Origin: Longilinea arvoryzae
Lineage (GTDB): Bacteria > Chloroflexota > Anaerolineae > Anaerolineales > Anaerolineaceae
Assembly (NCBI RefSeq): GCF_001050235.1
Contig: NZ_DF967972.1
Location: 2,617,901-2,681,900 of the forward strand
DNA length: 64,000 nucleotides
Reading direction: 5' to 3'
The notes below the pieces were generated by a model, which ran no database searches, was not told the DNA's origin, and saw only the letters and a program-made list of their open reading frames with translations. The position numbers and the translations under genes were made by a program. Positions 7,982 to 29,251 of the stretch are shown piece by piece; within the stretch, counting starts at the first letter, position 1, and every line of letters starts with the position of its first letter.

Positions 7982-8004
7982 GATGTTTTTTGATTTAGGA
8001 TGAG

Positions 8005-8700: not shown

Positions 8701-8820
8701 AAATCCTTTCTCCCGATTCCAGACGCAGGTTTCCCTGAATTTTCATCCGAATAACTATGATCTATCTTACCGGAAAATTGTTTAGAAATTGTAAGAGTAA
8801 GATAAGAATCAGATTAAGAA

Positions 8821-8844
8821 TAAACCCGCCGGTCGGCGGGTTTA
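8821..8844 (-). terminator. Intrinsic terminator of tRNA-Arg
   Basis: TAAACCCGCC and GGCGGGTTTA form a perfect ten-base stem around a GGTC loop, beginning two bases after the tRNA 3' end on the minus strand, and followed there by TTCTTAATCTGATT. Confidence 0.85.
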
Positions 8845-8845
8845 G

Positions 8846-8917
8846 TGTCCCTAGACGGACTCGAACCGTCACTCCCAGCTCCGGAGGCTGGTGCTCTATC
8901 CATTGCGCTATAGGGAC
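8846..8917 (-). tRNA. tRNA-Arg (anticodon CCG)
   Basis: The minus strand reads GTCCCTA at the 5' acceptor arm, an anticodon loop CTCCGGA (anticodon CCG, reading CGG codons), a T arm GACGG-TTCGAGT-CCGTC and TAGGGAC plus discriminator A. All acceptor, anticodon and T stem pairs form. The D stem GCGC/GAGC has one G-A mismatch. The CCA end is not encoded, so it must be added after transcription. A perfect hairpin terminator follows at once. Confidence 0.95.
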
Positions 8918-8974
8918 GATCAGAACAGGGTTCATTTTACCAGCATTCGCCCCCGTGAACAAGGCTTTGTGCTT

Positions 8975-9958: not shown

Positions 9959-9975
9959 AAATTCTCCACTGAGCA

Positions 9976-10989: not shown

Positions 10990-11041
10990 TGCATGACTCC
11001 AGATTTTTCTGGCTACATTGTACCGTCCTTTTGGGTTGGCG

Positions 11042-11761
11042 TCAGGGATTGGCCAGAAATCCGTTCAACCAGGTTTGGAGGTGTTGATAGTGCGAACCCT
11101 GCCAGTAAATTTGGCCGCAATCGGGACACTGCCAGAACCGATCATAATAGACCCGGGTTTGGGGAAGCAGGTTGGGAAGAACGGCTGCTTTTTCGACAGT
11201 ATGCAACACTCCATTGCACTTCGGACAGCGACTGAACGGCAGAATTTCGCCTGCCATCCCATACCGGCGGATAACCTCCACCAATTGCTGGCGCGGATCC
11301 TGGGCACGTATCCAATACCCAAAGTGAACCTGGTTGCGTTTGAGCAGCCCGCGATCGCGGGTGAGGAGAATCCGGTTTTCAGTTGCTGAAATTTCGGCCA
11401 GCGTTGGATCGTCCGCGTCATACCGATAATCGACGTCGAAACCCAGCAGACGAAGATAAGAAGTCAATTTGCCTAGATGCCCGTCCAGAACGAAGCGGAT
11501 CACCTCGGGTCGAATGCGTGGGTCGCCCGGCTGGTAAGGAAAGACTTCCACAGTGCAATCTTCCAGGGCGATTTGGTTTACCTCGTCCGGGTTGCCATTC
11601 ACCCGGATTTCAGCGATCTCAGGATGGGGAACCCCCAGAGATTCGATCAAATGCTTGTAGGTCTGGCTGCCCTGAAAGGCAACCCGAATGGTTGGTTCCG
11701 GATGGTCTTTGGGAAGAAAATCGTTAAGCGCGCCAATCAGGCGGATTTTGAGCTCTTTCAT
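11042..11761 (-). CDS. Mut7-C RNase domain protein with ubiquitin-like N-terminus
   Basis: The 239-residue product joins an N-terminal ubiquitin-like beta-grasp domain (MKELKIRLIGALNDFLP to about residue 85) to a Mut7-C PIN-like RNase domain: FVLDGHLGKLTSYLRLLGFDVDY, then LLTRDRGLLKR, and a C-terminal zinc ribbon with CPKC and CPDC pairs. This domain order is a standard Mut7-C architecture. Acidic residues in FVLDG and TRDRG fit the PIN-type nuclease site. The cellular RNA target is not known. It ends 53 bases before the AIR-synthase-like gene. Confidence 0.88.
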   Translation of the reverse strand: MKELKIRLIGALNDFLPKDHPEPTIRVAFQGSQTYKHLIESLGVPHPEIAEIRVNGNPDEVNQIALEDCTVEVFPYQPGDPRIRPEVIRFVLDGHLGKLTSYLRLLGFDVDYRYDADDPTLAEISATENRILLTRDRGLLKRNQVHFGYWIRAQDPRQQLVEVIRRYGMAGEILPFSRCPKCNGVLHTVEKAAVLPNLLPQTRVYYDRFWQCPDCGQIYWQGSHYQHLQTWLNGFLANP

Positions 11762-11851
11762 CGGCTACATCTCGAAAAGGCAACACACGTTTTTTTCTCA
11801 TAAGCCAACTATACCAGAACCAGCCTCGACCCGTCAAAAATGGTGCCGACT

Positions 11852-14329: not shown

Positions 14330-14633
14330 GCGTCAAAAAGAACGAAGGGTTTGTCTGTGTTGGACGGGAGGTAAAACCCCGGGCTGGCTTCTGTCGGCGG
14401 CGCAGGATATCAGATAGGGGTTGAGCTTACAGGAAAAACCAGAAAATTTTGCGGCAACGATAGATATTTATAAAGATAATTATAAACCGCAAATACGAAT
14501 GTGGCTTGCCCCCGTTCTCCACCCATCGGTTGTAAGAATTGTTGTCTCGATAACCATTTTGTAAGAAGATTATAACAAGTTCCGATTGGTGTTTTTCTTG
14601 CGATATGTTTTCAATAATGCAAGGAAGGCGTAA
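14330..14633. other. Intergenic region upstream of the GGDEF gene
   Basis: About 300 bases between the MFS gene stop and the GGDEF gene start, both on the minus strand. It is more AT-rich than the flanking genes. No coding frame, tRNA or clear hairpin was seen; it presumably carries the GGDEF gene promoter, but no convincing -35/-10 pair was found. Confidence 0.5.
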
Positions 14634-15887
14634 TCAATATTTCTCCAGGGTGGGTTTACCTACTGCGAACAACACAAAACCGACCATTCGAATGAGCGCC
14701 GCCACCATCAGAGCCGGGCCAATTCCGATTAATTCGGATAACGTGGTGCCGATGATGGGCGAGACGATCTGGGCCAGGTACTGAAACATATTGCCGACCG
14801 AAACGAAAATCGCGCTTTTCTCTGGCGGGACGGTTTTCATTAATTCGTCGAAAAATACCAGGTCCAGACCGGCCTGAAAGATTCCGGACAGACCGGCAAA
14901 AAGAGTGATCACGGTCGGTTGGTGGGTAATGGCAACCATAAAGGGATACAGCGAAAGGCCAAAAGTAGCCCACAAGAGTACATTGCGGGTTCCATGCCTT
15001 CGGGATTGATGCGACCAAAACAGGTATCCGACAATCAGAATGGCGGTTGCCGTTGTATTGATCACGGCAATCCAGCTATCCGGGAGTTGAACTTCGCGGA
15101 CGAAATACAACGGAAATAGCGGCGTCGCCAGGGCAATCCCGGAGGAATAGAAAAACCGTTTCAGAACAAAGGACACAAAAGGCTTTTCAGTCTTGATGGG
15201 ATCGATATAAGCTCGCAGGTTCTCGCGCAGTGATTTTACTTTGACCGCCGGCTGTGGGATGGAGTCGGGTATTTGAATGCGGCGCGAAAAGATGTAACTG
15301 ATGAATCCGCCGATCGAAAGCGCAATGAATACTTGCTGGTAGTTGATCGGGAAGACGATCCGATCCAGGCGCTGGCCGATGAAAAAGACCGCGACGGCGG
15401 TCGTAAACCCCAGGACTGTCCAACGCCGGGTCATTAAATCGAAACGGCCTTTGGACCCCGCCACGGCGTTCATGACCACCGAAAAGCAGATGGAGAGCAT
15501 GTTTTGGGGAATCGTAGCCAGCGCCCAGATGAGCAAAACGATCGGAACAACCAGCTTTTCCGGCAGCAACATGGATGCAAAGCCGGTCAAGGCGTAACAC
15601 ATCACCACACCCAGGCGGGTGGCGCTAAACCAGGGCACAATGTTGCGCTGTTTTTGCAGGAAGCTTCCCAGGGGCAGGGACAGGATCAGGCCGGTCAAAG
15701 CCGGCATCGAAGTCAACAGGCCGATTTGAAAACTGCTGGCCGACATGCGCGCCAGGAAGACCGGTAGAAACGCCGATGCCGCCCCGGCCAGCCCAACTCC
15801 GATGCCGTCGATTTGTACGTATCGATAGTTTTTTCTCTGAACCGGATCGAGCTCAACTGAGCCGGCGATGCGCTGATAAATATTCAC
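14634..15887 (-). CDS. Major facilitator superfamily transporter
   Basis: The 417-residue product has about twelve hydrophobic helices and the MFS loop between helices 2 and 3 (GSFLQKQR) with a central cytoplasmic linker around residue 200-230. Helices such as GLAGAASAFLPVFLARM and FQIGLLTSMPALTGLILSLPLG are typical. The substrate cannot be told from sequence. Translation seems to begin with GTG at 15887; the ATG two bases upstream is out of frame and stops at once. It follows the second WD40 gene by 63 bases, where a TATAAT box (15920-15925) could give it its own promoter, so it need not belong to that cluster. Confidence 0.8.
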   Translation of the reverse strand: MNIYQRIAGSVELDPVQRKNYRYVQIDGIGVGLAGAASAFLPVFLARMSASSFQIGLLTSMPALTGLILSLPLGSFLQKQRNIVPWFSATRLGVVMCYALTGFASMLLPEKLVVPIVLLIWALATIPQNMLSICFSVVMNAVAGSKGRFDLMTRRWTVLGFTTAVAVFFIGQRLDRIVFPINYQQVFIALSIGGFISYIFSRRIQIPDSIPQPAVKVKSLRENLRAYIDPIKTEKPFVSFVLKRFFYSSGIALATPLFPLYFVREVQLPDSWIAVINTTATAILIVGYLFWSHQSRRHGTRNVLLWATFGLSLYPFMVAITHQPTVITLFAGLSGIFQAGLDLVFFDELMKTVPPEKSAIFVSVGNMFQYLAQIVSPIIGTTLSELIGIGPALMVAALIRMVGFVLFAVGKPTLEKY

Positions 15888-15950
15888 ATGCAGAATCCGA
15901 AAAATGTAGGTTGAAAATGATTATACTACCCGGCCAGAGTCTCACCTGGC

Positions 15951-18194
15951 CTACAGTTCGATATCAAATTCGTCGAGTCGAATGCTGTGGATTTCTTCCA
16001 ACTGGATGTCGAAGCGGTTCTTCCAGCGAATGAGTTCCATCAAGAATGCCAGCCAGGCCTTGACGCCTGAAGAATGGTTTTTCTCCGCGTCCATGGACTG
16101 GATCTCTCCCAGAATCGGGTTATTCATCTGGTCGATGGGCTGGCGTAACCAGCGAAGGAGGCGGGCGTCCCAGAGGATCAGGCGGCCTTCCTGGCTGGCG
16201 CTCAGAATATACGCTCCGGCGAACCAGTGCAGTCCGGTGATGGTCTTTTCGTGTACCTGCATACTCTGCAGAATTTCGCCGGTCGAGGTGTTCCATACTG
16301 TGATGGCGCCGTCCTTGTCCCCGCCGAGGATGAAATCGGCCTGGGGCGAAAGGCATAGGGCGGTGACCGTCAGATCCGGCGTGTGGATTTGGGATAGAAG
16401 GCGGCCGCTGGAATAATTCCACACCCGCAGGGTGTGATCCCGGCTGTAACCCGCCAGCAGCGGCGCATCCGCGGCGAGGGCGAGTTGCAGGGTGGTTTCC
16501 GGACTGGCGGGCAGGTTTTGGAGCATTTCACCCTGCGGCCAGCGCCAGGTTTGAACCTGCTGACCCGAAAGAAGCAAGACATCCCCGGCCGCGTCGGTGG
16601 CTGCGGCGAACAGTTCACCCATGTTGGGCTGCAAGCGCGAATATTCCGGGCCGAGCGGGAAACGCCAGGCGCGCAGGGTGCCATCGAAAGAAGCGCTGAA
16701 CAACGTGCGGCCGTCTGGATGGATCGAAATCGAACGGATCCAACCGGTATGACCGGCGAGCGTTTTGACGAGGTGGCCGTCCTGGATGCGGTAGATGCGA
16801 ATGCCTTGATCGGAAAACGCGGCCGCCAGGAATTCTCCATCCGGACTGAGCGCCAGAGCGCGCGCACCTGGAACCGGGCTGGAGATGACGTCGCCGCGCC
16901 GTTCGCCGGAGGGCAGATCCCATAAATAAAGACGTTGGTCGGATCCGCCGGTCGCCAGCATCCGCCCGTCGCTGCGCATGGCCACAGCAGAAATGTCCAA
17001 CGCGGGGGTTTTCAGCACTTTGGCGACGCAGATTTCAGGCGTTTCGCGCAAGGCCCGATTGGCAAGCGAAACCAGGTCCAGAAATTCGAGCTCTTCCGAT
17101 TGGGTTTCCGGTTTCCAACCGGCGGACTGCAAAATACCGATCAATTGGGCTGCCCACAACGGCGGCGCGTGGGTGATCATGCGCCAGGCGGCCCGCCAGT
17201 CCTGCTTGCTTTCGAACTGGCGAAGAACGGAACGCCAATCTGCATCACTCATGTCTTTGAGCCAGCGCCGGCGGTGGGCGTCGCCCAGGCTCTGCAGCCA
17301 TTCGGTATGCCCGCTCAGACGGGAATGACTGAGAATTCGCTGGCGCAATCCCGGACCGGCACTTTCGTAGGCTGCGTTGAGCCGCTGGTGGGTAAAATCC
17401 AATACCTCATAGGCGTCCCATTGCTCAGTCAGGAACAGGAACAGAGCCCGACGTTCGGGATGGGTGGGCTGAAAGCCGTGTTGGACCGCCAGCCGGCCTG
17501 CCTCGCCATCGTCCTCGTTGAGGAAGAGCTCGCACAGCGCATTTTGAGTCGGCACGGATCCTTTTTGAGCCCGGTCGGTGAGCCAGAAGCGCACGTCGTT
17601 CTTTTCGTGCTGCGTATAGCCATGATAATGATCGATCAATATCGCCAACTTTTCATCCGTGGCTGTTAACAGCGCATCAGCAATTTCGGTCCAATGTTCC
17701 AGGCCCAGTTTGGTCGCCCGGGCGGCCAGTTGCTCCTGCAAAACGGGTGGAACCTGAGTCAGATAAACATGCAGCAATTTCTCCAGGTGTGGATCATCGC
17801 CAAGGTATTCGGGCAGCGGCAGAAATTGAAAAGCAAAACAGCGATTCTGCCAGACGAGCGGTGAGGGGATTTTTTCATCCCGGATCCATTCGACCGCCTG
17901 AGCGGACCCATCCTCCAACGCCAGGCGATACAGGCTTTCGCGGGCTGCCGAATTTCCCTGCGTCGCAAGCGTGTGCAGAGCTTGCGCGGCCTGGCGGGCG
18001 GCTTCCGGCGCGGGGCAGGCGCGCGCGCTGTTTTCGAGCAGTCCAATCGCAGCTTCCGAAGCGTCTTCGAACAGGGCCTGAACCGCGCCAGCCTGTAACA
18101 GAAAGGCCTGCAGGTCGGCCGGCAACTGGATATCCGGTTGAGCGCTGCTCAGGAGGTTTTTGATCTGCTCGTAATGGTCCTGAAAGGTGGGCAT
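15951..18194 (-). CDS. WD40 repeat protein of the AAA/Hsp70/DUF1257 cluster
   Basis: The 747-residue cytoplasmic protein has a helical N-terminal region (1-240), a middle module (about 240-390) beginning GEAGRLAVQHGF then ERRALFLFLTEQWDAYEVLDF, a WD40 propeller (about 405-690, with repeats such as MLATGGSDQRLYLWD, TLFSASFDGTLRAW and FILGGDKDGAITVWN) and a short C-terminal tail with RFDIQ..EI and EFDIEL. The middle module and the tail recur in the HEAT/WD40 protein encoded at 21016-23730, so the two are divergent partners or paralogues. No catalytic motif is visible; a scaffold role is inferred. It starts 3 bases after the radical-SAM gene stop, so it is the last gene of the packed run. Confidence 0.88.
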   Translation of the reverse strand: MPTFQDHYEQIKNLLSSAQPDIQLPADLQAFLLQAGAVQALFEDASEAAIGLLENSARACPAPEAARQAAQALHTLATQGNSAARESLYRLALEDGSAQAVEWIRDEKIPSPLVWQNRCFAFQFLPLPEYLGDDPHLEKLLHVYLTQVPPVLQEQLAARATKLGLEHWTEIADALLTATDEKLAILIDHYHGYTQHEKNDVRFWLTDRAQKGSVPTQNALCELFLNEDDGEAGRLAVQHGFQPTHPERRALFLFLTEQWDAYEVLDFTHQRLNAAYESAGPGLRQRILSHSRLSGHTEWLQSLGDAHRRRWLKDMSDADWRSVLRQFESKQDWRAAWRMITHAPPLWAAQLIGILQSAGWKPETQSEELEFLDLVSLANRALRETPEICVAKVLKTPALDISAVAMRSDGRMLATGGSDQRLYLWDLPSGERRGDVISSPVPGARALALSPDGEFLAAAFSDQGIRIYRIQDGHLVKTLAGHTGWIRSISIHPDGRTLFSASFDGTLRAWRFPLGPEYSRLQPNMGELFAAATDAAGDVLLLSGQQVQTWRWPQGEMLQNLPASPETTLQLALAADAPLLAGYSRDHTLRVWNYSSGRLLSQIHTPDLTVTALCLSPQADFILGGDKDGAITVWNTSTGEILQSMQVHEKTITGLHWFAGAYILSASQEGRLILWDARLLRWLRQPIDQMNNPILGEIQSMDAEKNHSSGVKAWLAFLMELIRWKNRFDIQLEEIHSIRLDEFDIEL

Positions 18195-18197
18195 AAA

Positions 18198-18764
18198 TTA
18201 TTCGCGCAGGGGTTCGATTCCGCTGAAGCGGATCTCGCCGGTCGGATCGATGATGACCTCGGCCGGAGGAACCTGATCAAGGTCGGATTGGTTATAACGG
18301 GCGCTGAGGAAGTGAACGGTCTTGTTGCTGGAACCGCGCAGCCCGCTGGCAATGCGCAAATCGGATCGATACCGGCCGGCCAGAAGGACATCGATGCAAT
18401 CCAGGAGTTCCTCGATTTGGGGGATGCGCGCCGCTTCCTCCCAGGTAAAACCGGTGAAAACCAGCGTGCTGAGCCCGGTTTCACTCTTCACCCTTTTCAA
18501 CAATTCCAGCAGCGCCGGCGCCTGCTGGAGCGGCTCGCCGCCGCTGATGGTGATGCCTTCGATCTGGCCTGCCCCGGCAAGGATGCGCTCGAAAAGATCG
18601 CTGATCCCCACCACCTGACCGCTCTGTGAAGCATGCGTTCGCGGATTGAAGCAACCCGGGCAGTTCAACGTGCAGCCCTGCACCCAGATCACACTGCGCA
18701 GGCCGGGTCCGTTGGATCGGCTAAGCGGCTCGAAATGGTGCAGGCGCAGGATCGGATCGGGCAT
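18198..18764 (-). CDS. Radical-SAM / 4Fe-4S single-cluster activase-like protein
   Basis: The 188-residue product is a small radical SAM enzyme of the NrdG/activase size class. It has a CTLNCPGC cluster motif (CxxxCxxC, residues about 31-38) that binds the SAM-ligated 4Fe-4S, and an ISGGEPLQQ motif for SAM binding. Similar proteins activate glycyl-radical enzymes, but no glycyl-radical partner is encoded nearby; instead it is fixed between DUF2997 and a WD40 protein. Its target may therefore be one of the small cluster proteins or an unknown client. The DUF2997 gene ends 5 bases upstream. The family call is firm, the role is not. Confidence 0.88.
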   Translation of the reverse strand: MPDPILRLHHFEPLSRSNGPGLRSVIWVQGCTLNCPGCFNPRTHASQSGQVVGISDLFERILAGAGQIEGITISGGEPLQQAPALLELLKRVKSETGLSTLVFTGFTWEEAARIPQIEELLDCIDVLLAGRYRSDLRIASGLRGSSNKTVHFLSARYNQSDLDQVPPAEVIIDPTGEIRFSGIEPLRE

Positions 18765-18769
18765 CGGGT

Positions 18770-18982
18770 TTAATGCATACCCTTTTCCCGGAGCCGGGTT
18801 TCCTCAGGCAGTTGGATGCCTTCGATGGCTTCCGGGGTCATTTCGCGCACTTCCACTTCGCCGCCCAGGGCATTCTCAAGCGCGCGGGTGATATCCAGGC
18901 AGGCTTTCCCCTGGACGCCGCGTACATGGACCTGGACTTTGCCATCTTTTCCAATGGTGACTTCGATTTCCTGAACATCCAT
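18770..18982 (-). CDS. DUF2997 family small protein
   Basis: The 70-residue product has the DUF2997 signature: a two-stranded start (EIEVTIGKDGKVQVHVRGV), then GKACLDITRALENALGG, with one conserved cysteine in GKAC. In other genomes this family is found beside DUF1257 and Ycf46-type AAA proteins, as here. The single cysteine after the GVQGK segment could be a cluster or substrate ligand, but no function is established. It starts 8 bases after the DUF1257 stop and ends 5 bases before the radical-SAM gene, so the three are translated from one message. Confidence 0.88.
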   Translation of the reverse strand: MDVQEIEVTIGKDGKVQVHVRGVQGKACLDITRALENALGGEVEVREMTPEAIEGIQLPEETRLREKGMH

Positions 18983-18990
18983 AGCTCACC

Positions 18991-19371
18991 TCAACCGGCC
19001 ATGCGCCGCAGCACCAGACGGATTTGACCCTTTTCCTGGACCTCTTCGATCAGATCGAAACCCTGTTCTTCCAGCCTGGCGCGGGTCGCATGATAGGCAT
19101 AGCGTTGGGTCACCTGATTGACGAAATCGGCGCGTTTTACACCGCGCACGCCCCACCAATCGGCAACGATCTCGTAGGTTTCGCCGTTGCGCCGAAAGCC
19201 AATCGGATAACTGAAGCGCAGCGGAATTTTGATCTCGACCGGTGTTTTGGCGACGCTGAAACCGTTCAGGCTCACGTCCCCTTCTTCGACCGGATATCCT
19301 AGGTCCGCCAGCGCCTTGAGCAGGAATTCCTTTTCGACGATCCTGGTTTTAATTCGGGAGATATGCGACAT
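18991..19371 (-). CDS. DUF1257 (Ycf35-like) protein
   Basis: The 126-residue product matches the DUF1257 / Ycf35 family: MSHISRIKTRIVEKEFLLKAL at the start, a central VADWWGVRG segment, NQVTQRYAYH and a C-terminal beta hairpin. The family is known from plastid genomes of some algae and from cyanobacteria and has no settled function. Here it lies between Hsp70 and DUF2997 with gaps of 22 and 8 bases. A start ATG with GGAGAG upstream supports the chosen N-terminus. Given its neighbours it is probably a component or client of the AAA/Hsp70 machine. Confidence 0.9.
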   Translation of the reverse strand: MSHISRIKTRIVEKEFLLKALADLGYPVEEGDVSLNGFSVAKTPVEIKIPLRFSYPIGFRRNGETYEIVADWWGVRGVKRADFVNQVTQRYAYHATRARLEEQGFDLIEEVQEKGQIRLVLRRMAG

Positions 19372-19393
19372 TTCACTCTCCTACGAAAATTCT

Positions 19394-20983
19394 CTAGGTT
19401 AATTTTACAACCGGTGTCTTATCCAGAATCAGCCGGTTGTTTTGCAGATCCCGCGCTACGAGCGTCAGGCGCTTATTGGCATCCACATAAAATTCGACCT
19501 CGAAGCGCGGCTCGCCGGCCTTGCCGGGTGGTTCGGCCGCCAGGAATGTGGGACTGTTTTCGTTCATCCAGAATAACGAACGCTCCTGCTGCTCGTTTGC
19601 GCTGAGCTGCACGAGCCGGGCTGCACCGCCCGGGTCGAACACCAGCTCGACGGAAGGAGTCTCGCTGGCGCGCTGCTGTCCCATCTCGTAAATGGCGATG
19701 CCCAACTGGCGCTGTCCGTCGTACGACGCCTTGATATTCAGTCGGGCGACCGGGTCCGGGGTGGGATAGGAAGTTCCCCGGTGCACCAGGACGCGGTAAT
19801 CATAACTTCCCTTTTCGGGGTTGACGTAACGAATCGCGTAATCATGCTGGATGTGATCGTAGAAATCCACCCCAGCCACGAAGGCGGCCGCGCCGCGCGC
19901 CACGGCGTCCAGCGGACGGTTGGAAAAGACCTTTTCCTTGCCGAAGAACTGGCGCAGGGTGCGCTGTACGGCGGGAATCTGCGAACTGCCGCCGACCATG
20001 AGGACTGCTTGAATGTCCTCCTCGGAGTAACCGCGCTCACGGGCATGGTTGATGGCGGTTCGCACGGTCTGGTTGATATCCGCAAAAAGATCGTTCTGGT
20101 CGAGCAGGTCTTCGAACTCGCCGCGCGTGAACGCAGCCTGCAAAGCGCCGCCCCCGGCCAGCGGTATGGGTGGTATGGCGGCGGAATCCTGAAAAGAAAG
20201 CTGGACTTTCAGGCGTTCGCACTCCACCAGCAGCGCAGTGGAAACCGGGCGGATATCATCGTCGCTGTCGAGATGCTGGTTGCGGCGCAGGATTTCCTGA
20301 AACAGCCACTGGTCCAGGCGCGAACCTCCCAGCGTTTTGCCGGCTTTCCCCAGCACGCGGCAGCGTTTGCCGGTCAAAGCGGATTCCTGGCTTTCCATCA
20401 GGATCACGGAAGCGTGCAGGGTGCCGCCGCCGAAATCGAAAATCAGATAGACGTTGCCGGGTTGAATATGCGCGCCGTAACCCAGGGCGGCCGCGGAAGG
20501 CTCGTCGATCAGCCGAAAGCGCAGGATGCCTGCCGATTCGGCCACGCCGGTCAACCAGTTTTCATAATGCTCGTAGGCTTCGACCGGCACGCTGAGGGCG
20601 ACCTCTTCATTTTTCAGCTCGATTTCCTGCGAGGCGATGGCCAGGACACTCGTCAAAAAATCACGCCCGGCGGTGAAGGGCGTGACCTCCCGGTCATCGA
20701 TGCGGATCTTGATGGGGCTGCGGTTATTGATGTACTGTTTCATCCAGCGGAAAGTGCGCGGGGAGTTGTTGAGCCCCTTTTCGATCACCTGATTGCCAAT
20801 CCAGCGGCGCTGATCGGCGGCGTAATGGATCAATGACGGTACGACCGTGACCTCTTCGTCGCCCTGCTGGCTGCGGAGGCCATAATCCGGGATGTGCAGC
20901 GGAATGCCCTCACGGCGTTCGGGGTCCCAAACGGCCAGGACGGTATTGGATGTGCCGAAGTCGATTGCCAGTCGTCCACTCAT
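19394..20983 (-). CDS. Hsp70 family protein without the C-terminal lid
   Basis: The 529-residue product has an intact Hsp70 ATPase domain: IDFGTSNTV (phosphate 1), IDEPSAAALGYG, IFDFGGGTLHAS (phosphate 2) and VLMVGGSSQIPAVQ (adenosine loop). A beta-type substrate domain follows from about residue 400 to the end (LVHRGTSYPTPDPV, then FYVDANKRLTLVARD). DnaK is about 640 residues, and the missing part is the alpha-helical lid. The acidic catalytic residues lost in the MreB-like protein of this window are kept here. Its place between HEAT/WD40 and DUF1257 genes suggests a dedicated chaperone rather than the housekeeping DnaK. Confidence 0.92.
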   Translation of the reverse strand: MSGRLAIDFGTSNTVLAVWDPERREGIPLHIPDYGLRSQQGDEEVTVVPSLIHYAADQRRWIGNQVIEKGLNNSPRTFRWMKQYINNRSPIKIRIDDREVTPFTAGRDFLTSVLAIASQEIELKNEEVALSVPVEAYEHYENWLTGVAESAGILRFRLIDEPSAAALGYGAHIQPGNVYLIFDFGGGTLHASVILMESQESALTGKRCRVLGKAGKTLGGSRLDQWLFQEILRRNQHLDSDDDIRPVSTALLVECERLKVQLSFQDSAAIPPIPLAGGGALQAAFTRGEFEDLLDQNDLFADINQTVRTAINHARERGYSEEDIQAVLMVGGSSQIPAVQRTLRQFFGKEKVFSNRPLDAVARGAAAFVAGVDFYDHIQHDYAIRYVNPEKGSYDYRVLVHRGTSYPTPDPVARLNIKASYDGQRQLGIAIYEMGQQRASETPSVELVFDPGGAARLVQLSANEQQERSLFWMNENSPTFLAAEPPGKAGEPRFEVEFYVDANKRLTLVARDLQNNRLILDKTPVVKLT

Positions 20984-21015
20984 GAACAGCGCTTCTCCAG
21001 GATGCGATTCTCGCG

Positions 21016-23730
21016 CTATCCATTGTACCCGGATTTTGCTTCGCTTTCGTCGACGAGGATATCGAATTCTCCGGGTTGGATGCGGTTGATCTCGCTGATC
21101 TGGATGTCGAAGCGGTAGCGGTGCTGCAGCAGCGCTTCCAGAATGCGCAGGGTATTGCGCACCGGTTCGGGAAGCGATTTGACCTGTACCAGACTTTCGA
21201 TTGCGGCCAGTTGTTCGGGCTGGTAACCAGCCAACGGCAGCTCCAAAATGGACGGCAGCGCCTGGGTGCGCAAATCCCAGAGGGTGAAGGCGTTGTCGCT
21301 GGAACCGGTCGCCATGAATTCACCTTTGGGCGAGATTTCCAGGCTGGTCAAATTCGGGAGCGGGGCCAGAATACGGGCCTGCTCCTTCCCAGACGGCCAT
21401 TCGATGAAATGAATCTCACCCTCCGCGCCGGTTGTGATGACCTGCCGGTAGCGCGGCAGAAAACAGATGCCGGTTACCGCGCCCGTATGAACGGTCAGGC
21501 TCGATTTCGGGCGGTGTTGGGTGGAATCGATTTCGGAATACCGGACCACCTGGCCGTTCATCTGCCCGGCGAGCAATTCCCTGCCTTCCGGTGCAAAGGC
21601 TGTACAGCGGGCCATGCCCGGGGAAATACGTGCGCCTCTTGTGTAAACAGGCGCCAGACCTGTGAGGGGCGTCAGGGTCGCCAAATCGATCAATTGAAAT
21701 CGGTCTGAAACCAGGGCGGCAAAACGTCCGTCCGCGGAGATGGCGGCGCAGCGCGGCCATTCCGCGACGTCCACGCTGGCGCGCTGGCAGCCCGCAGCAA
21801 TATCCCAGAGGACGAGCTTTTGGTCTCGTCCGGTCGTCAGCAGGTTGCCATCTGCCAATGGCAGAAGCGCGGTGACCGACGCGGCATGTGAACCGATACG
21901 GTGGTAATTCTGACCGTCGAAAGTCAGGATGTCGCACTGCGAGGTCCCGTTGGTGCGTTCCGCGCAGGCCAACTGGCCGTTCGAGAGGTACGCGACCTGA
22001 CCCACCGAGTGGGCAAAACCGGCCAGGACCTGGGAAACCTGCGCGGTTTGAAAATTCCAGAGGACAACCTTGCGGCTGCCGGTGGCCAACGCCATCAACG
22101 GCTGATCGGGCGCGAAGGCCATATCGTTGACCCGGCCGTGGATTTTCAAAGTGGCCAGGGGAACAGCAGCGGGTAGCTGAACCGCCAATTCGAGCGGGGA
22201 TGGGATCAGCGGTTGGCCGGCGAGATCCTTCAATTGCAGGTACAACCTCTGCTCGTCGGGTTGCGCCGGGGACCATCCATTGGCAGACAGGATTTGTAGA
22301 ATTTCGATAGACCGCGCCAGGGGTAGTTCTTGGGCGAGCTGCCATATCCGGTCCCAGTTTTGGCTCCGGGTCAACATCTGGATGACCAAACCGGCTTCGG
22401 CCGAATCCATGCGGGCGGCGCGTTCGCGATCGCTGGAGCCCGTGAGAATGCTGAGAAAATCAATCCGCCCGGCGTTCTGGACGGTGTGGCGCAGGCGCTG
22501 GCGCAAATTCGCGTCGGCGGTTTCGTACAGGGCGCGCAGGATACGCTGATCGAAATCCAGCGTCTCATAGGCCTGCCATTGGGCGGTCAGAAACAAAAAC
22601 AAAGCGCGTTGTTCGCTGGCGGAAGGCAGGTAACCCGCATCCTGGGCGGCCTGCCCGGCCTCGGTATTGCCGGTGGCGATGAAGGATTGGCAAAGGGCTG
22701 CGCGGGATTCCGGGCTTTGCAGGTTGCGCAGCGCTTTCCGGGCATTCGATCGAATGACCTCATCCGCATCCTGGCAGGCCGAAAGCAGCCCTTCGATCTG
22801 ACCCGGCGGGCACTTCTGGGCGATATCCAGGCGCCCAAGTTTGAGCGCGCACAACAGGCGCAGGGGCTGGGGCTGGCGCGGCAATAAATTGCACCCGGTC
22901 AGGATGGCCTCCAGGTTTGCATCGCGCGTCCGGCTCCAGGACAGGCAGAATTCGGTCAGCGCCGCGCCCGAAAGCGCGCGCCGCAATAAGTAATCTGCCT
23001 GGACAGCAATCTGCTCGTCCGGATCGCGGCTGGCCGCAATGAGGGGGGCAACGATTTCGGCTGCGCTGGTATCGATCCGGTCCGGCTGGTTGAGTTTGAG
23101 CGCAGTCAGGACGCGCACATCGATCGGATCGTGAGCCAGATATCCGGCCGTAAGAATGGTCTTTTCAAGGAACTGAGCCCGTGTGCGCGCCCAATGCGTG
23201 CACAGAATATCCAGCGCGTCTTCTTTCTGAAGCTGGCCGATCACCTGGCGGGCGGCGGATGCGATTTGCGGATCGGCGTCCTCGCAGGCCTGGATCAGCG
23301 GCAGGACCAGGTCCGGAGTCGCGTCGGCCAACTGTTCGAGACGGCCGAGTCTGAGCAGGCTGAAAGCACGCGCTTCGGGCGGAGCCGAGGCCGGCTGCTT
23401 GAGCTCGAGCAGCACTTCCAACAGCGTTCCTGAGCGGGAACGTCCTTCTTCGACCCATAATGAGTCGATGCTGGACGCCCGGTTGATTTTCACCAACGCC
23501 GCGCGAATGGATCGGCGAATACTGGAGGAGCGCGCAGAATCCAGCCCGCGCGCCAGAAGGGACGCCGCGCCCGAATCGCCGGTTTGCAACGCGCGTTCCA
23601 ATCGAAGGAACGCCAGCCGGTTAAGCAGCGGCGCCGGCGAAGCCATCAGCCCGGCCAGACGCTGCTGTCCAGGCGTGGGAAGGGCCCGGACCGGTTCGGC
23701 GCTCAGCCGGCGTTTCTTTCGCACGGCCAT
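21016..23730 (-). CDS. HEAT-repeat / WD40 protein
   Basis: The 904-residue product has a helical HEAT-like region (about 1-365, with repeated units such as LVLPLIQACEDADPQIASAA), a middle module (about 365-505, with AGQAAQDAGYLP then EQRALFLFLTAQWQAYETLDF), a WD40 propeller (about 530-850, e.g. NLLTTGRDQKLVLWD and FMATGSSDNAFTLWDL) and a tail near 880-895 with RFDIQ..EI and EFDI. Module and tail are shared with the second WD40 protein of the cluster. No enzyme motif is seen; it looks like a large adaptor. The ATG lies 3 bases after the AAA stop (TGAGCATG), which implies coupled translation with the ATPase. Confidence 0.88.
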   Translation of the reverse strand: MAVRKKRRLSAEPVRALPTPGQQRLAGLMASPAPLLNRLAFLRLERALQTGDSGAASLLARGLDSARSSSIRRSIRAALVKINRASSIDSLWVEEGRSRSGTLLEVLLELKQPASAPPEARAFSLLRLGRLEQLADATPDLVLPLIQACEDADPQIASAARQVIGQLQKEDALDILCTHWARTRAQFLEKTILTAGYLAHDPIDVRVLTALKLNQPDRIDTSAAEIVAPLIAASRDPDEQIAVQADYLLRRALSGAALTEFCLSWSRTRDANLEAILTGCNLLPRQPQPLRLLCALKLGRLDIAQKCPPGQIEGLLSACQDADEVIRSNARKALRNLQSPESRAALCQSFIATGNTEAGQAAQDAGYLPSASEQRALFLFLTAQWQAYETLDFDQRILRALYETADANLRQRLRHTVQNAGRIDFLSILTGSSDRERAARMDSAEAGLVIQMLTRSQNWDRIWQLAQELPLARSIEILQILSANGWSPAQPDEQRLYLQLKDLAGQPLIPSPLELAVQLPAAVPLATLKIHGRVNDMAFAPDQPLMALATGSRKVVLWNFQTAQVSQVLAGFAHSVGQVAYLSNGQLACAERTNGTSQCDILTFDGQNYHRIGSHAASVTALLPLADGNLLTTGRDQKLVLWDIAAGCQRASVDVAEWPRCAAISADGRFAALVSDRFQLIDLATLTPLTGLAPVYTRGARISPGMARCTAFAPEGRELLAGQMNGQVVRYSEIDSTQHRPKSSLTVHTGAVTGICFLPRYRQVITTGAEGEIHFIEWPSGKEQARILAPLPNLTSLEISPKGEFMATGSSDNAFTLWDLRTQALPSILELPLAGYQPEQLAAIESLVQVKSLPEPVRNTLRILEALLQHRYRFDIQISEINRIQPGEFDILVDESEAKSGYNG

Positions 23731-23732
23731 GC

Positions 23733-25274
23733 TCAGGACCGCGGGCGCAGGTCGAGCTGGATGCGAACGAAGCGGTTTTCGGCTTCGGTGGTCTCGCGGA
23801 AGGAGGCGGATTGGGCGCGGCCTTCGCGCAGCCAGTTGCGCAGCATCTCGATGGTCTCGCGCTGCGAGATCGAGAGGGGAACCTGGTGTTTGAAGGCATC
23901 CAAAATATCCCGCGTGGTGAACTCACGCTGGCCGTCGTTGAAGCCGACATACATGGCGTCGATGATGGCCTGTTCGATTTCCGCGCCCACATAGCCTTCG
24001 CAGGCTGCCGAGAGCGCATCCAGGTCGAAGTCGGCCGTCAGGCGGTTGCGTTTGCGCAGGTGAACGGAGAGGATCTCCCGACGCTCATCCTGAGTGGGCA
24101 AGTCGAGAAAGAAAATTTCATCGAAACGGCCCTTGCGCAGCAGCTCCGGCGGCAGGCTGGCGATATCGTTGGCGGTGGCGACCACGAAACAGGGGGCTGT
24201 TTTTTCCTGCATCCAGGTCAGGATGGAGCCGAAAACGCGGGTCGAAGTGCCGGAATCCAGCCCACCGTGCGAAAGTCCCTTTTCCATCTCATCGATCCAC
24301 ACCACGCACGGGGCGACGGTTTCGGCCAGGTGCAGCGCGCGGCGGGTGCGTTCTTCGGATTCGCCGACCAGACTGCCGAACAGCGCGCCGATATCCAGGC
24401 GCAGCAGCGGCAATCGCCACAGCCCGCCGATCATCTTGGCGGTCAGGCTCTTGCCGGTGCCGGGGATGCCGATCAGGGCGATGCCCTTGGGCGAAGGCAG
24501 GCCGTACCGGCGGGCATCCTGTGTGAAGGCGCGCTCGCGCAGGCGCAGCCAGTCTTTCAATACGCCCAGGCCGCCGACATCGTCCGGTGTTTCGGAAACG
24601 GCGTAGAACTCCAGGGCTTCGCTTTCGCGGATGATCTGTTTCTTTTCCTCTGTCACCAGGTCGATGTCCCGGTCATCCAGAATGCCGTCTGTGACGATGG
24701 CCTTGGCAAAAACGCGCTGCGCCTGAGCCGAGGTCAGTCCGATGGCCGCCTGGACGAGTTTTTCACGCCCCAGCGGGGTGAGGTTGACCTTGACGCCGGG
24801 CGTGGTGGTCAGATTGGCCAGCACGCCTTCCAGGTCGGCGGCGGTTGGCAGGGGAAAATCGACCAGCACGGCGTCATCCTTGAGTTCGTCGGGAATGTGG
24901 GTGCCGCCGGTGGTGACCAGAATGGATTTCTTGGTAAATTTCAGGCGCTGGGTGATGCTGCGCAACTTGCGCTTGATCTGCGGGTTCGTCCAGGCGTCGT
25001 GAAAATCCTTTAAGATGAAGAGAGCGCTCGTATTGGGGTCGGCTTTGTCGATCTGTTCGAGCGCCGTCAGCGGGTCGCGGGCAATGGGAGCAGCCCCGCT
25101 GGCGGTCGTCAGCCATTGAAAACCATCCGCAGCGTCCCAGGAAAGGCAGCGCCGGCCGGTGCGATCGCAGACGGCTTTGATGGTCTGCAGGGCGCGCTCC
25201 TCTTCGAAAGTAACCAAAACCAGCAGCGTAAAACGCGCGCGCAGGTAGACATCCAATTGCTCTTCAAATTTCAT
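23733..25274 (-). CDS. Ycf46-type AAA ATPase
   Basis: The 513-residue product has a Ycf46-like N-terminal half ([18 protein letters not shown], with [12 protein letters not shown] and ILVTTGG) and a C-terminal classical AAA module: Walker [13 protein letters not shown] near residue 270, Walker [13 protein letters not shown] near 321, sensor FVVATANDI and arginine-finger region [13 protein letters not shown] near 380. This is the order and size of Ycf46. The frame is open further upstream, but a GAGGGGAAG ribosome binding site points to the ATG at 25274, overlapping the end of sdaAA by 11 bases. It is the first gene of the AAA-HEAT/WD40-Hsp70-DUF1257-DUF2997-radical SAM-WD40 run and the likely motor of that system. 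Confidence 0.92.
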
Positions 25275-26166
25275 GTTCTTCTTCCCCTCGGGTCTTTTTC
25301 CAGATGGCCTGAGCCAGCGCCCGCCCGGTGGGTGTGGCGGCCAGCCCACCCTGCGCCGTCTCGCGGAAGCGTTCATCCATGCGCCCACCGACGCGTTCCA
25401 TGGCATCGATGACTTCGTCCGCCGGAATGGGGCTTTCGATGCCGGCCATGGCCAGATCGGCCGCCGTGAAGCACTGCGCAACCGCACCGGCGTTGCGCAA
25501 AATGCACGGCACTTCCACCAATCCGGCCACCGGATCGCAAATCAAACCGAGCTGGTTGGTCAGGGCCAGAGCAACCGCATGAGCTGATTGTACCGGAGAA
25601 CCGCCCAGCAGTTCAACCGCCGCGCCGGCTGCCATTGCCGAAGCGGAGCCGGTTTCAGCCTGGCAGCCGCCCGCCGCGCCGGAAACATGGGCCCGGTTGA
25701 CGATCACCATGCCGATTCCGCCGGCCGTGAACAAAGCCTGCACCAACTGTTCATCTGATAGGCGGTGCGCTTCCTGCAGCGTAAAGAGAACCGCGGGCAG
25801 GACGCCCGCCGAACCGGCCGTGGGCGTGGCCACGATGCAGCCCATGCCGGCGTTGACCTCGCCGACCGCCATGGCGCGAGCGATGGCCCGGCTCAACCAT
25901 GAACCGGTCAACGGGCTGGGGGTATTTTTTAGGCTGCCCCACAATTTATACGCGTTTCCCTTGCTCAAACCGCTCAAGGTTTGCACCGGGGAGGACAATC
26001 CTTTTTCGACGCTGGCGCGCATGGTTTGCAACCGGTGGCGCATGTCGGCCAGAACGGCTTCGCGCGAGCGGCCGCTGCTGTCGACCTCGGCCTGAAGGAC
26101 GATTTCGTGCAGCGGCAAATGCCGGCTGTCGGAGGTCTCAATTAATGTCTGAAGGGACGTGAACAT
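25264..26166 (-). CDS. sdaAA: L-serine dehydratase, iron-sulfur type, alpha subunit
   Basis: With the beta subunit this enzyme deaminates L-serine to pyruvate and ammonia using an oxygen-labile 4Fe-4S cluster. The 300-residue product has the conserved VNAGMGCIVATPTAGSAG stretch, AAGGCQAETGSASAMAAG, and LICDPVAGLVEVPC, which supply the cluster cysteines. The split alpha/beta form is the one found in Firmicutes and many anaerobes. It starts 5 bases after sdaAB and overlaps the AAA gene by 11 bases, so the serine genes may share a promoter with the downstream cluster; this is a positional link, not evidence of shared function. Confidence 0.95.
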   Translation of the reverse strand: MFTSLQTLIETSDSRHLPLHEIVLQAEVDSSGRSREAVLADMRHRLQTMRASVEKGLSSPVQTLSGLSKGNAYKLWGSLKNTPSPLTGSWLSRAIARAMAVGEVNAGMGCIVATPTAGSAGVLPAVLFTLQEAHRLSDEQLVQALFTAGGIGMVIVNRAHVSGAAGGCQAETGSASAMAAGAAVELLGGSPVQSAHAVALALTNQLGLICDPVAGLVEVPCILRNAGAVAQCFTAADLAMAGIESPIPADEVIDAMERVGGRMDERFRETAQGGLAATPTGRALAQAIWKKTRGEEEHEI

Positions 26167-26171
26167 GAGTT

Positions 26172-26855
26172 TTATTCCTTCAAGCGCGCGATCTTGCGCA
26201 CGGCGTGTACCCAGTCGAGTTTCTGAAAGTAGTCCACCAGGGCATCCGGGACCGCCTGATCGGTTTCGACGATCATGATGGCCTGCCCGCCGCGTTGGTC
26301 GCGGGCCACGTTGAAGAATGCGACGTTGATGTGATCTTCGAGCAGTTTTCCGGTCACCGCGTTGATGGTGCCCGGGCGGTCTTCGCTGACGATCAGCAGG
26401 GTCTCGAATTCTGCCGTCAGGTTGACCGGGAAACCGTCCAGGCGGGTGATGGCGATCATGCCGCCGCCGATGGACGCGCCGGTGATTTCCATGCGTTGGT
26501 TTGAGGATGTGAGGGTAAAACGCACCGTGTTCGGATGCTGGTTTTCTCCCAGGTCGGCATCCTGGAAGGTGAATTTCAACCCGGCTTCACGCGCCAGATT
26601 GAAGCTGTCCGGAATGCGTTCGTCGGACGGCTCCAGGCCCAGCAGACCGGCCACCAGGGCGCGGTCTGTGCCGTGACCGCGGCCGGTTTCTGCAAACGAC
26701 CCGTGCAGTTCGATGAGCACCTCGGCCGGCTTTTCGCCGAAGATCGAGCGCGCCACCTGGCCCAAGCGAACCGCGCCGGCGGTGTGTGAACTGGACGGAC
26801 CGACCATGATCGGTCCGATGATATCGAATATAGATAATGAGCGAATACTTTCCAT
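26172..26855 (-). CDS. sdaAB: L-serine dehydratase, iron-sulfur type, beta subunit
   Basis: The 227-residue product has the beta-subunit start FDIIGPIMVGPSSSHTAGAVRLG and a C-terminal ACT-like domain (LLIVSEDRPGTINAVTGKLLEDHINVAFFNVARD) that in this family binds serine and regulates or stabilises the enzyme. The SSSHTAG motif is the family hallmark. It is the first gene of the minus-strand run and a TATAAT box lies about 40 bases upstream at 26895-26900. The divergent gene is the aldehyde:ferredoxin oxidoreductase. Confidence 0.95.
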   Translation of the reverse strand: MESIRSLSIFDIIGPIMVGPSSSHTAGAVRLGQVARSIFGEKPAEVLIELHGSFAETGRGHGTDRALVAGLLGLEPSDERIPDSFNLAREAGLKFTFQDADLGENQHPNTVRFTLTSSNQRMEITGASIGGGMIAITRLDGFPVNLTAEFETLLIVSEDRPGTINAVTGKLLEDHINVAFFNVARDQRGGQAIMIVETDQAVPDALVDYFQKLDWVHAVRKIARLKE

Positions 26856-27088
26856 GAGAACAACCAGTTGATAAAATGCCGTTCAAAGGCTTCGATTATA
26901 GCACCCCTTGAACTGGCGATCGAAAATCCGGCCGGCGGGGCCGACGTCATCCTGACTGGTGACATTTGTCGATGCGAAGAGTGATAAAACCCAAGTCGGC
27001 AGGTTGCCCGGCGGCTTTTATAATGATAGCAGCAGATCACTGTCTTGAGGCCCATTCTCATCCATTCACCTGTCCAAGGAGAGCACGA
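26856..27088. promoter_or_regulatory. Divergent promoter region between sdaAB and the aldehyde oxidoreductase
   Basis: The 233-base gap carries a TATAAT box on the minus strand (26895-26900) for sdaAB and another on the plus strand (27019-27024) for the oxidoreductase. Neither has a convincing -35 at 17 bases, so regulated promoters needing an activator are possible. Confidence 0.4.
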
Positions 27089-29251
27089 ATGACTCAACTT
27101 TCACCCGAGGTGGTGTTGAAAGCGCATAAGGTTCTGGCTGACTTTGCCTATGAATGCCGGCCAGTCGAGCATGGATACGCCAATCGGACGCTTTACATCA
27201 ACCTGGATAATTCGTTTGTTCAAAGCAAACCCGTCGCGCAAAAGATGAAGGATCTCTTCACCGGCGGGCGCGGTTTTGCGATGTGGTTGTTGTGGAACGC
27301 AGTAGCGGATGGAACTGCCTGGGACGATCCCAGCAATGAATTGATCATCACCGGCGGCCCGATCGGCGGCATCACGGCTTATCCCGGCTCGGGCAAGGCC
27401 ACGGTGGTCACCATCTCTCCGCTGACCCACGCGATCATCGACAGCAACGGCGGCGGCTATTTCGGGCCGTACCTGAAATTCGCCGGTTGGGACGCGCTCG
27501 AGATTCAGGGCAAAGCCGATAAAGATGTCATTATCTTTATCGACGGCGACAACGGCCGGGTGACGGTCGAAGAAGCCCCGCTCGAACCCGTGGATACCCA
27601 CCTGGTGAACCGGATGATCACCGAAATCTACGGCAAGAACGACCGCGAACGGCGCGGCATCTCGGTCGTTTCCGCCGGCCAGGCCGCCGAACACATTCCC
27701 ATGTGCGGGCTGAATATCAGCTACTGGGACGCACGCCGCCAGGAAGTGCGCATCAAGCAGGCCGCGCGCGGCGGCGCCGGAAGTGTGCTGCGCGACAAGA
27801 AAATCAAGGCCATCGTCGTGCGTTTCACCGATATGGGCGGGGACGCCAATGGCTGCGCCAAGCCCGAACTGGTCCGCAAAGCCGGCGCGCGCATCAATTC
27901 CGAACTCACCCGTTTCGATGCCTCGCAGAACGATATGCGCGGCACGGGGACGCCCTACCTGGTCGAAATCATGAACCGCTTCGACCTGCTGCCCTGCAAG
28001 AACTTCCGTTTTGGCGCCGATCCGGACGCGTTGAAGGTGGCCGGTGAGGTGTGGAAGGCCATGTACGACCGCCGCGGTCCGGATGGCTGTTGGTACGGCT
28101 GCACCATGGCCTGCGCGCACGGCGTACCGGGTGTCAAGCTGCGCACCGGGCCGTATCAGGGTGAGTGCGTCTTCGTGGACGGTCCGGAATACGAGACCCT
28201 GGGCGCGCTGTCCTCCAACCTGTCCATTTTCGATCCGCAAAATTTGCTGGAACTCAACTTCTACTGCGATACCTACGGCATCGATACCATCTCGGTCGGT
28301 GATTCGATCGCCTTTGCAATGGAATGTTACGAAATCGGCATTCTGAACCCGGAGATGACGGGCGGGATGGAATTGACCTGGGGTAACGCGGACGTGGCGC
28401 TCGAACTGCTGCACCAGATGGCGCGCGGTGAAGGCTTCGGCTTGATCGTGGGCCAGGGCGTCCGCTTTATGAAGAAGTACTTCGTCGAGAAATACGGCGC
28501 CGATCCCGCCCTGATGCAGGACATCGGCATGGAAATCAAGGGCATGGAAATTTCCGAGTACATGTCCAAGGAATCGCTGGCCCAGCAGGGCGGTTACGCG
28601 CTGGCTTCGAAGGGCGCGCAGCACGACGAGGCCTGGCTGACCTTCATGGAACTGGTGCACAAGCAGATCCCCACCTTCGAAACCAAGGCCGAGGCGCTGC
28701 ATTATTTCCCGATGTGGCGCACCTGGTTCAGCCTGCACGGGTTGTGCAAGCTGCCCTGGAACGATATCACCCCCGAAAGCAACAAGACCGCCAGGGAACC
28801 CGGAAAGGTGCCCGAGCACGTCGAAAACTACACCTGGCTGTACGAGGGGGTGACCGGCAAACCGACCAATATCGATGAGATCATCCTGGCTTCGGAACGG
28901 GTTTACAACCTGCAGCGCCTGTTCAACCTGCGCCTGGGGTACGGCACGCGCCAGTGGGATTATCCGCCCTATCGTTTGATGGGCCCCGCGACGGTGGCGG
29001 AGTACGAATCGCGCGCCGAACGCTACGACGGCCAGTTGAAGGAGGTCGTCGGTTACGATCCAACCGGCAGGACCACCGAAGAGAAAATGGCCGCCCTGCG
29101 CGAATATAAGGAAAAACAGTATGACCTGCTGATCGACGCGGTTTACCAGCGCCGGGGGTGGTCGAAGAACGGCATTCCCACGCTCGATACCGTCCGCCGC
29201 CTGGGCATCGATTTCCCGGACGTGGTGGCGCTGATCGCCAAAAATTACTGA
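27089..29251 (+). CDS. Tungsten-type aldehyde:ferredoxin oxidoreductase
   Basis: The enzyme oxidises aldehydes to carboxylates, or the reverse, and passes electrons to ferredoxin in the cytoplasm. The 720-residue product shows the AOR N-terminal domain (GGRGFAMWLLWN, ITGGPIGGITAYPGSGKATV) and the cluster motif CWYGCTMAC (CxxxCxxxC) near residue 340, with the distal fourth ligand in HGLCKLPW. These bind the 4Fe-4S beside the bis-tungstopterin. It is longer than the classic 600-residue AOR. The frame is open upstream to 26966, but the AAGGAGAG site at 27076-27083 supports the ATG at 27089. The substrate cannot be told. Confidence 0.92.
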   Translation: MTQLSPEVVLKAHKVLADFAYECRPVEHGYANRTLYINLDNSFVQSKPVAQKMKDLFTGGRGFAMWLLWNAVADGTAWDDPSNELIITGGPIGGITAYPGSGKATVVTISPLTHAIIDSNGGGYFGPYLKFAGWDALEIQGKADKDVIIFIDGDNGRVTVEEAPLEPVDTHLVNRMITEIYGKNDRERRGISVVSAGQAAEHIPMCGLNISYWDARRQEVRIKQAARGGAGSVLRDKKIKAIVVRFTDMGGDANGCAKPELVRKAGARINSELTRFDASQNDMRGTGTPYLVEIMNRFDLLPCKNFRFGADPDALKVAGEVWKAMYDRRGPDGCWYGCTMACAHGVPGVKLRTGPYQGECVFVDGPEYETLGALSSNLSIFDPQNLLELNFYCDTYGIDTISVGDSIAFAMECYEIGILNPEMTGGMELTWGNADVALELLHQMARGEGFGLIVGQGVRFMKKYFVEKYGADPALMQDIGMEIKGMEISEYMSKESLAQQGGYALASKGAQHDEAWLTFMELVHKQIPTFETKAEALHYFPMWRTWFSLHGLCKLPWNDITPESNKTAREPGKVPEHVENYTWLYEGVTGKPTNIDEIILASERVYNLQRLFNLRLGYGTRQWDYPPYRLMGPATVAEYESRAERYDGQLKEVVGYDPTGRTTEEKMAALREYKEKQYDLLIDAVYQRRGWSKNGIPTLDTVRRLGIDFPDVVALIAKNY

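Follow-up and report, generated by a model that had tools for sequence, protein, structure and literature searches.

The window analysed here is a stretch of 64,000 nucleotides from Longilinea arvoryzae (contig NZ_DF967972.1, positions 2,617,901 to 2,681,900 of the forward strand), which has a 4.44 Mb Chloroflexota genome and belongs to the family Anaerolineaceae, together with Anaerolinea and Bellilinea. At positions 15,951 to 25,274 it holds seven minus-strand genes for an AAA ATPase, two repeat-containing adaptors, an Hsp70, proteins of the DUF1257 and DUF2997 families and a radical S-adenosylmethionine enzyme (rSAM). All seven open reading frames (ORFs) were found where the initial annotation had placed them, separated by 2–32 bases (2, 32, 22, 8, 5 and 3 bases from the AAA gene to the second WD40 gene), and Pfam agreed with each of its family assignments; the genome was queried family by family with profiles. 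The genes are, in window coordinates:

23733..25274 (-): AAA ATPase, 513 aa (Pfam AAA and AAA_lid_3)
21016..23730 (-): HEAT/WD40 adaptor, 904 aa, with a bipartite tail, RFDIQISEINRIQPGEFDILV, near the C-terminus (Pfam HEAT_2 and WD40)
19394..20983 (-): Hsp70, 529 aa, lid-less, with a nucleotide-binding domain (NBD) and a beta-sandwich substrate-binding domain (SBD-beta) (Pfam HSP70, 134.9 bits)
18991..19371 (-): DUF1257 (Ycf35 family), 126 aa, N-terminal Met-Ser-His (Pfam PF06868)
18770..18982 (-): DUF2997, 70 aa, with G-x2-G-x2-C (Pfam PF11211)
18198..18764 (-): NrdG-like rSAM with CxxxCxxC and a C-terminal extension (Pfam Fer4_12 and Radical_SAM)
15951..18194 (-): second WD40 adaptor, 747 aa, whose tail, RFDIQLEEIHSIRLDEFDIEL, is the exact C-terminal end (Pfam WD40)

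No internal promoters or terminators exceeding shuffled controls were detected within the gene run, and an Rfam search of window positions 14500-27600 gave no matches.

The neighbourhood is conserved in the family. The rSAM profile matched in 54 of 147 Anaerolineaceae genomes, and in ~18 of the 20 loci retrieved (numbered with an L; L225, a repeat of the L025 locus, is within the ~18) the genes for Hsp70, DUF1257, DUF2997, rSAM and a WD40 protein were present with their order kept; contig permitting, the AAA gene was mostly present as well, and the HEAT/WD40 gene in part of the loci. The consensus order of the ~18 loci besides the window was AAA-(HEAT/WD40)-(GrpE)-Hsp70-DUF1257-DUF2997-rSAM-WD40, with a median gap of 8 bases (95 gaps in the Anaerolineaceae loci). 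All seven genes occur in identical order in L016 and L022 (Anaerolinea) and in L025, and six of them in L017 and L023 (Bellilinea); the exceptions were L226, with the rSAM alone, and L228, with Hsp70-DUF2997-rSAM alone. Outside the family the order is rearranged. Desulfobacterota have HEAT-DUF2997-Hsp70-DUF1257-AAA-rSAM (L024, L026) or rSAM-HEAT-DUF1257-AAA-DUF2997-Hsp70 (L103), and loci of this phylum that lack the rSAM have a HEAT-only protein in the adaptor position; Planctomycetota have AAA-DUF1257-x-DUF2997-rSAM (L094) or Hsp70-DUF1257-DUF2997-rSAM-HEAT/WD40 (L085). The set recurs in Chloroflexota, Planctomycetota and Desulfobacterota, with partial sets on cyanobacterial, Bacillota and Actinomycetota plasmids, and is more than a chance arrangement; the random scattering that the initial annotation had named as contrary evidence was not observed.

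DUF1257 itself is scarce in Chloroflexota (5 of 400 genomes) and patchy in two other phyla (20 of 246 genomes in one, 29 of 297 in the other). Over 63 loci the core consists of AAA, DUF1257 and DUF2997, and a HEAT or WD40 protein was present in 22 of 26 loci with Hsp70 versus 3 of 37 loci without it (Fisher test, 4.8e-10, uncorrected for shared ancestry). In two genomes the set is split, the main locus holding AAA-DUF1257-WD40 and a second operon Hsp70-DUF2997-rSAM (L180, L177). These split-but-complete sets are the strongest single argument for the parts acting together, and we regard it as almost certain that the gene set is one functional unit. The alternative, neighbours without a common function that are held together by low rearrangement, draws on the flanking genes, which are likewise kept in the family (see below), but is hardly credible given that the parts stay together in several phyla, in altered orders, on plasmids and in two complementary half-operons, and that the adaptors have a common tail.

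The AAA ATPase has a Walker A motif (GIPGTGKS), a Walker B motif (WIDEMEK) and GRFDE in its second tier; no P-loop or Walker A was found in the sequence of the first tier (residues 1-200). A model was built from seven relatives (predicted local distance difference test score, pLDDT, 74; predicted template modelling score, pTM, 0.46). Residues 1-486 of this model align to residues 210-766 of p97, that is D1-D2, with a Z-score of 18.5 over 441 residues (root-mean-square deviation, rmsd, 8.1), and the model aligns to Pex1/Pex6 with a Z-score of 17.7 (rmsd 4.8). By this alignment, of modest confidence, the chain has the two AAA domains of a type II AAA protein, and it is predicted to be a two-tier, p97/Cdc48-like ATPase with a degenerate first tier. 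It resembles p97/Cdc48 in its two stacked AAA tiers, which span the entire model, but differs in lacking the Walker A of the first tier and the N domain (the chain begins at the D1 position), and in having small DUF partners where p97 has ubiquitin-binding cofactors. The homologues used for comparison were plasmid proteins encoded near DUF1257/DUF2997, and the label 'Ycf46-type', given to the ATPase in the initial annotation, would follow from its gene company and architecture.

Profile and sequence alignments to DnaK/Hsc70 showed that the NBD of the Hsp70 is complete and that the chain stops at the end of the SBD-beta sandwich, the helical lid being absent; the earlier description of a lidless Hsp70 was therefore correct. 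A grpE gene precedes hsp70 on a Pseudanabaena plasmid (Pfam, 43.4 bits) and in the Anaerolineaceae loci L218 (36.4 bits) and L219 (34.5 bits), and similar GrpE-like genes are present in L214 and L221, making four loci of the family by similarity. Because the NBD is complete and a GrpE gene accompanies it in some loci, the sequences point to a functional Hsp70 cycle; no DnaJ was noticed in the loci. DnaK-GrpE with a ClpB-type disaggregase likewise combines an Hsp70, a GrpE (found here in some loci) and an AAA ATPase, but in the present system the Hsp70 is lid-less and the ATPase is of the p97 kind, not ClpB.

Both adaptors of the window carry a common bipartite tail, RFDIx[LI]...GEFDIx[LI], which strengthens the earlier claim of two scaffolds. 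Of 37 full-length adaptors, 33 have this pattern, and it is absent from all 481 other ORFs of the same loci. The count is more a description than a test, because the pattern was broadened once the tails were known; a stricter version, settled before retrieval of the 20 family loci, was found in 8 of 16 adaptors and in none of 565 other ORFs. Of the 23 tailed WD40 adaptors, 22 have a tail that ends at most 2 residues from the C-terminus, and one Pseudanabaena plasmid encodes four tailed WD40 proteins. A search of the L. arvoryzae genome for further proteins with the tail recovered the WD40 gene and, besides it, a single match outside a plausible gene. Since one tail sits on different protein bodies, it is rather likely, judged from the sequences, to be a docking signal for a common partner.

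DUF1257 (PF06868, 90.3 bits, cut-off 22.2) and DUF2997 (PF11211, 71.6 bits, cut-off 24.1) were both assigned well above the thresholds of their families. The AlphaFold2 model of DUF1257 (pLDDT 91.6) has a beta-alpha-beta4-alpha-beta2 topology, and the protein starts with Met-Ser-His in 12 of 12 aligned sequences. Foldseek found no fold relatives at E ≤ 0.001, and the best VIA hits, to KA1 domains, had a Z-score of 6.1, which is too low to use. The long, apparently 'fused' DUF1257 frames of L087 and L093 proved to be chance upstream open frames and not fusions. In DUF2997 the motif G-x2-G-x2-C is kept in 51 of 53 relatives; since rSAM-less loci keep it equally (36 of 38), a role of DUF2997 as dedicated rSAM substrate is disfavoured.

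The initial annotation had stated that DUF1257, DUF2997 and Ycf46 are known to occur together. This holds for DUF1257 and DUF2997, which form an operon with fed7 in Synechocystis (DUF2997-ycf35-fed7, PMC4284462), but not for ycf46, which lies in a separate operon, slr0373-0374-0376 (PMC7496141). Expression of fed7 is induced by iron starvation and the gene is needed for tolerance to it (PMC4284462); iron deficiency and oxidative stress both elicit a response of the slr0374 (ycf46) operon, and ycf46 affects carbonic anhydrase activity (PMC7496141). Retention of DUF1257 and DUF2997 is widespread among cyanobacteria, and red algal plastids keep ycf35/ycf46 (PMC4284462, PMC5940233). The system described here has in common with the cyanobacterial and plastid Ycf46-Ycf35-DUF2997-Fed7 proteins the adjacency of DUF1257 and DUF2997, and an AAA ATPase of its kind, 75% identical to that of the window, stands beside these two genes on cyanobacterial plasmids; it differs in that the cyanobacteria have a [4Fe-4S] ferredoxin after ycf35 and ycf46 elsewhere, and Hsp70, tailed adaptors and rSAM are not described there. 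By analogy, these parallels would fit a stress role without being decisive.

The rSAM has the cluster motif CxxxCxxC (CTLNCPGC) and matches PF04055 (33.0 bits) and PF13353 (Fer4_12, 116.9 bits), which places it in the radical SAM superfamily. Its best curated model is NrdG (TIGR02491), with 112.6 bits against a cut-off of 126.1. No NrdD above cut-off was found in this genome (best match E 0.07 across 28 positions), and among the 14 genomes that carry the rSAM at the locus or close to it, 11 lack NrdD (10 of 13 besides this genome); several of the 14 are incomplete metagenome assemblies, so that single absences are weak. Two of the three genomes with NrdD have an NrdG2 adjoining it, and in the third NrdD lies near a contig end. 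A first tree was weakly supported and contained a long NrdG2 branch; in a tree made without long branches, six NrdG proteins separated from 25 other rSAMs with split support of 98/97, and the 25 are extended at the C-terminus, unlike NrdG. The sub-threshold score, the absence of NrdD, the separate branch and the extension rule out NrdG. A plain nrdG serving anaerobic ribonucleotide reduction, in a cluster without an rSAM function of its own, is accordingly very improbable, even with NrdG as the best-scoring model. Because NrdD is missing, the branch is separate and the extension is present, the enzyme is, as far as sequence comparison can tell, an orphan acting on a substrate other than NrdD. 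NrdG and the glycyl-radical activases are its closest curated families and share the CxxxCxxC motif; linkage to AAA and DUF genes is a further difference from them.

A glycyl-radical client of the cluster rSAM was also rejected, because there is no NrdD and the one Gly_radical protein detected in this genome adjoins an activase-like rSAM of its own. The earlier suggestion of an iron-sulfur or radical-bearing client is not borne out: no glycyl-radical client was found and the rSAM is missing from many core loci. We consider an iron-sulfur or radical enzyme an unlikely client.

All or part of the core is also found on plasmids, and members of it in phages. The AAA proteins of a Pseudanabaena and a Geminocystis plasmid are 75% and 74% identical to that of the window, and the order on the Pseudanabaena plasmid is grpE-Hsp70-DUF1257-(two other genes)-DUF2997-AAA-WD40. 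A Paenibacillus plasmid (Bacillota) has AAA-DUF1257-DUF2997-rSAM, Actinomycetota plasmids have AAA-x-DUF2997-HHH-rSAM, and IncC plasmids have a distant AAA with weak matches to DUF1257 and DUF2997. Phages carry the AAA gene (phrog_8638, which the window AAA matches over its full length). AAA-DUF1257-DUF2997 is a modular, mobile core.

Several further arrangements were observed among these loci. In the IncC plasmid NZ_CP089019.1 (L144), and in hundreds alike, type IV secretion genes lie a few genes downstream of the set. Prochlorococcus phage P-SSM2 (L148) has overlapping DUF2997-DUF1257 genes, annotated as hypothetical, at 3802-4381, shortly before the DNA polymerase. Among Desulfobacterota, one version of the cluster includes a formylglycine-generating-enzyme-like (FGE-sulfatase) gene (L106:4978-5754), and L124-L132 have a divergent AAA with DUF1257 and DUF2997, some with a DUF3150-family gene, perhaps in prophages or plasmids. 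Relatives of the rSAM are not confined to this cluster type; on plasmids they adjoin other AAA and PIN genes. L138, L141 and L145 (NC_008758.1, NZ_CP032284.1, NZ_AP024856.1) encode a large AAA-domain protein, a PIN-domain protein, a hypothetical protein, an AAA ATPase and an NrdG-like rSAM with C-terminal extension, possibly a separate undescribed system. A Treponema succinifaciens plasmid (NC_015386.1, L135) has an rSAM-AAA pair at 7345-9500, between VgrG and contractile-injection-system baseplate genes, and L178 has a similar pair. On a Calothrix plasmid (NC_019728.1, L139), Hsp70, a long TPR protein, an NrdG-like rSAM and an 848-residue AAA lie close together at 2397-13096, an apparently analogous set in which TPR replaces WD40/HEAT.

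Two sets of local neighbours flank the operon:

25264..26855 (-): L-serine dehydratase alpha and beta, directly upstream and co-directional (Pfam SDH_alpha/SDH_beta)
26966..29251 (+): aldehyde ferredoxin oxidoreductase (AOR), divergent (Pfam AFOR_C/AFOR_N)

Both families are iron-sulfur enzymes. Because the start of the AAA gene overlaps the serine dehydratase alpha gene (25264-26166) by 11 bases, the transcript at this locus may begin at sdaB; serine dehydratase genes are also present beside the L224 locus. A divergent AOR gene lies near the operon start in at least 12 family members besides the window (L016, L017, L209, L210, L215, L217, L219-L222, L224 and L225). Since a major facilitator superfamily (MFS) gene follows the operon about as frequently, the AOR link is weak; AOR is possibly a regulon-mate of the operon, not a demonstrated part.

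The conserved order, the split-but-complete sets, the p97-like AAA, the lid-less Hsp70 with GrpE and the shared tail support the earlier proposal of one machine remodelling a client. Protein remodelling is a highly probable predicted function of the gene set. For the reading as a whole, an ATP-driven machine of the p97/Hsp70 type with tail-docked adaptors, we see a modest balance in favour. In such a machine, the WD40 and HEAT repeat bodies of the adaptors would bind clients, and their tails would dock on a common partner, which may be Hsp70, DUF1257 or the AAA ring. Hsp70 would hold or deliver the client, which the AAA ring would pull apart or alter in its assembly state, DUF1257 and DUF2997 standing in for the N-domain cofactors of p97. 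In the rSAM-bearing type, for which there is less support, the rSAM could modify or activate a substrate exposed by the machine; that it acts on something so exposed is a tentative but quite possible proposal. In cyanobacteria the [4Fe-4S] ferredoxin encoded beside DUF1257-DUF2997 could, again with less support, fill the iron-sulfur role. Several observations weigh against the machine as described: the confidence of the AAA model is modest, DUF1257 has no clear relative among solved structures, the association counts ignore the relatedness of the loci, and many loci have the AAA-DUF1257-DUF2997 core without Hsp70, adaptors or rSAM, with core members in phages as well. The added parts are therefore optional.

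A more specific version, chaperone-guided radical modification, in which the p97-like and Hsp70 ATPases present a protein to the dedicated NrdG-like rSAM for installation of a radical or a radical-derived change, strikes us as rather improbable; its target may be an adaptor-borne client, the adaptor tail or else DUF2997, in which a Gly and a Cys are conserved. We know of no radical SAM enzyme that works with a p97/Hsp70 machine.

Two other roles were weighed against the remodelling machine. The first is that of a mobile-element defence or conflict system, with adaptors that would sense an invader, chaperones that would impose a threshold, and an effector that would be the rSAM or some other component. 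The patchy occurrence of DUF1257, the presence on plasmids and phages, the RloB, DndB and toxin-antitoxin genes among the cyanobacterial plasmid neighbours, the consecutive tailed WD40 adaptors on one plasmid and the AAA, PIN and large AAA-domain genes accompanying related plasmid rSAMs would agree with such a role, and chaperone-threshold conflict systems with HSP70/GrpE have been described (the MoxR-vWA ternary and GTPase-HSP70 systems, PMC7159879). The latter are nearest in spirit, sharing chaperone ATPases, repeat or propeller proteins and variable operons, but the present cluster is without MoxR, vWA, tubulin or a recognised effector, and no mention of this gene set was found in that paper. 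The set also has no nuclease, toxin or other killing domain; PADLOC-DB 2.0.0 gave no specific match, the AAA (IetA) and rSAM (pVip) matching partially as generic superfamily members and Hsp70 marginally. Unlike in a typical defence island, order and flanks (AOR, MFS) are kept across genera of Anaerolineaceae, and the wide retention of the DUF1257 and DUF2997 genes in cyanobacteria and the presence of ycf35/ycf46 in red algal plastids also argue against defence, which we judge unlikely. About as doubtful, or slightly more so, is a response to iron-sulfur protein stress, in which the operon would be the non-photosynthetic counterpart of DUF2997-ycf35-fed7 and ycf46, with the rSAM replacing the ferredoxin. 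It would agree with the iron and oxidative stress responses of the Synechocystis operons and with the AOR and serine dehydratase genes flanking the operon here; however, AOR flanking is no stronger than that by the unrelated MFS gene, the Chloroflexota loci showed no ferredoxin, and orthology of the AAA with Ycf46 is putative.

A literature search gave no description of this gene combination; as most subscription journals lay outside the search, this does not establish novelty. Each component comes from a known family, and it is their assembly and the shared tail that are new to us. Overall, DUF1257 and Ycf46, which have no settled function in plastids and cyanobacteria, gain mechanistic company in the form of a p97-like ring, Hsp70, GrpE and tailed adaptors. 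The clusters point to hosts and plasmids in which this can be tested, with the shared tail as a direct experimental handle. Because the expected partner of the orphan rSAM, NrdD, is missing, the substrate of this enzyme would be new.

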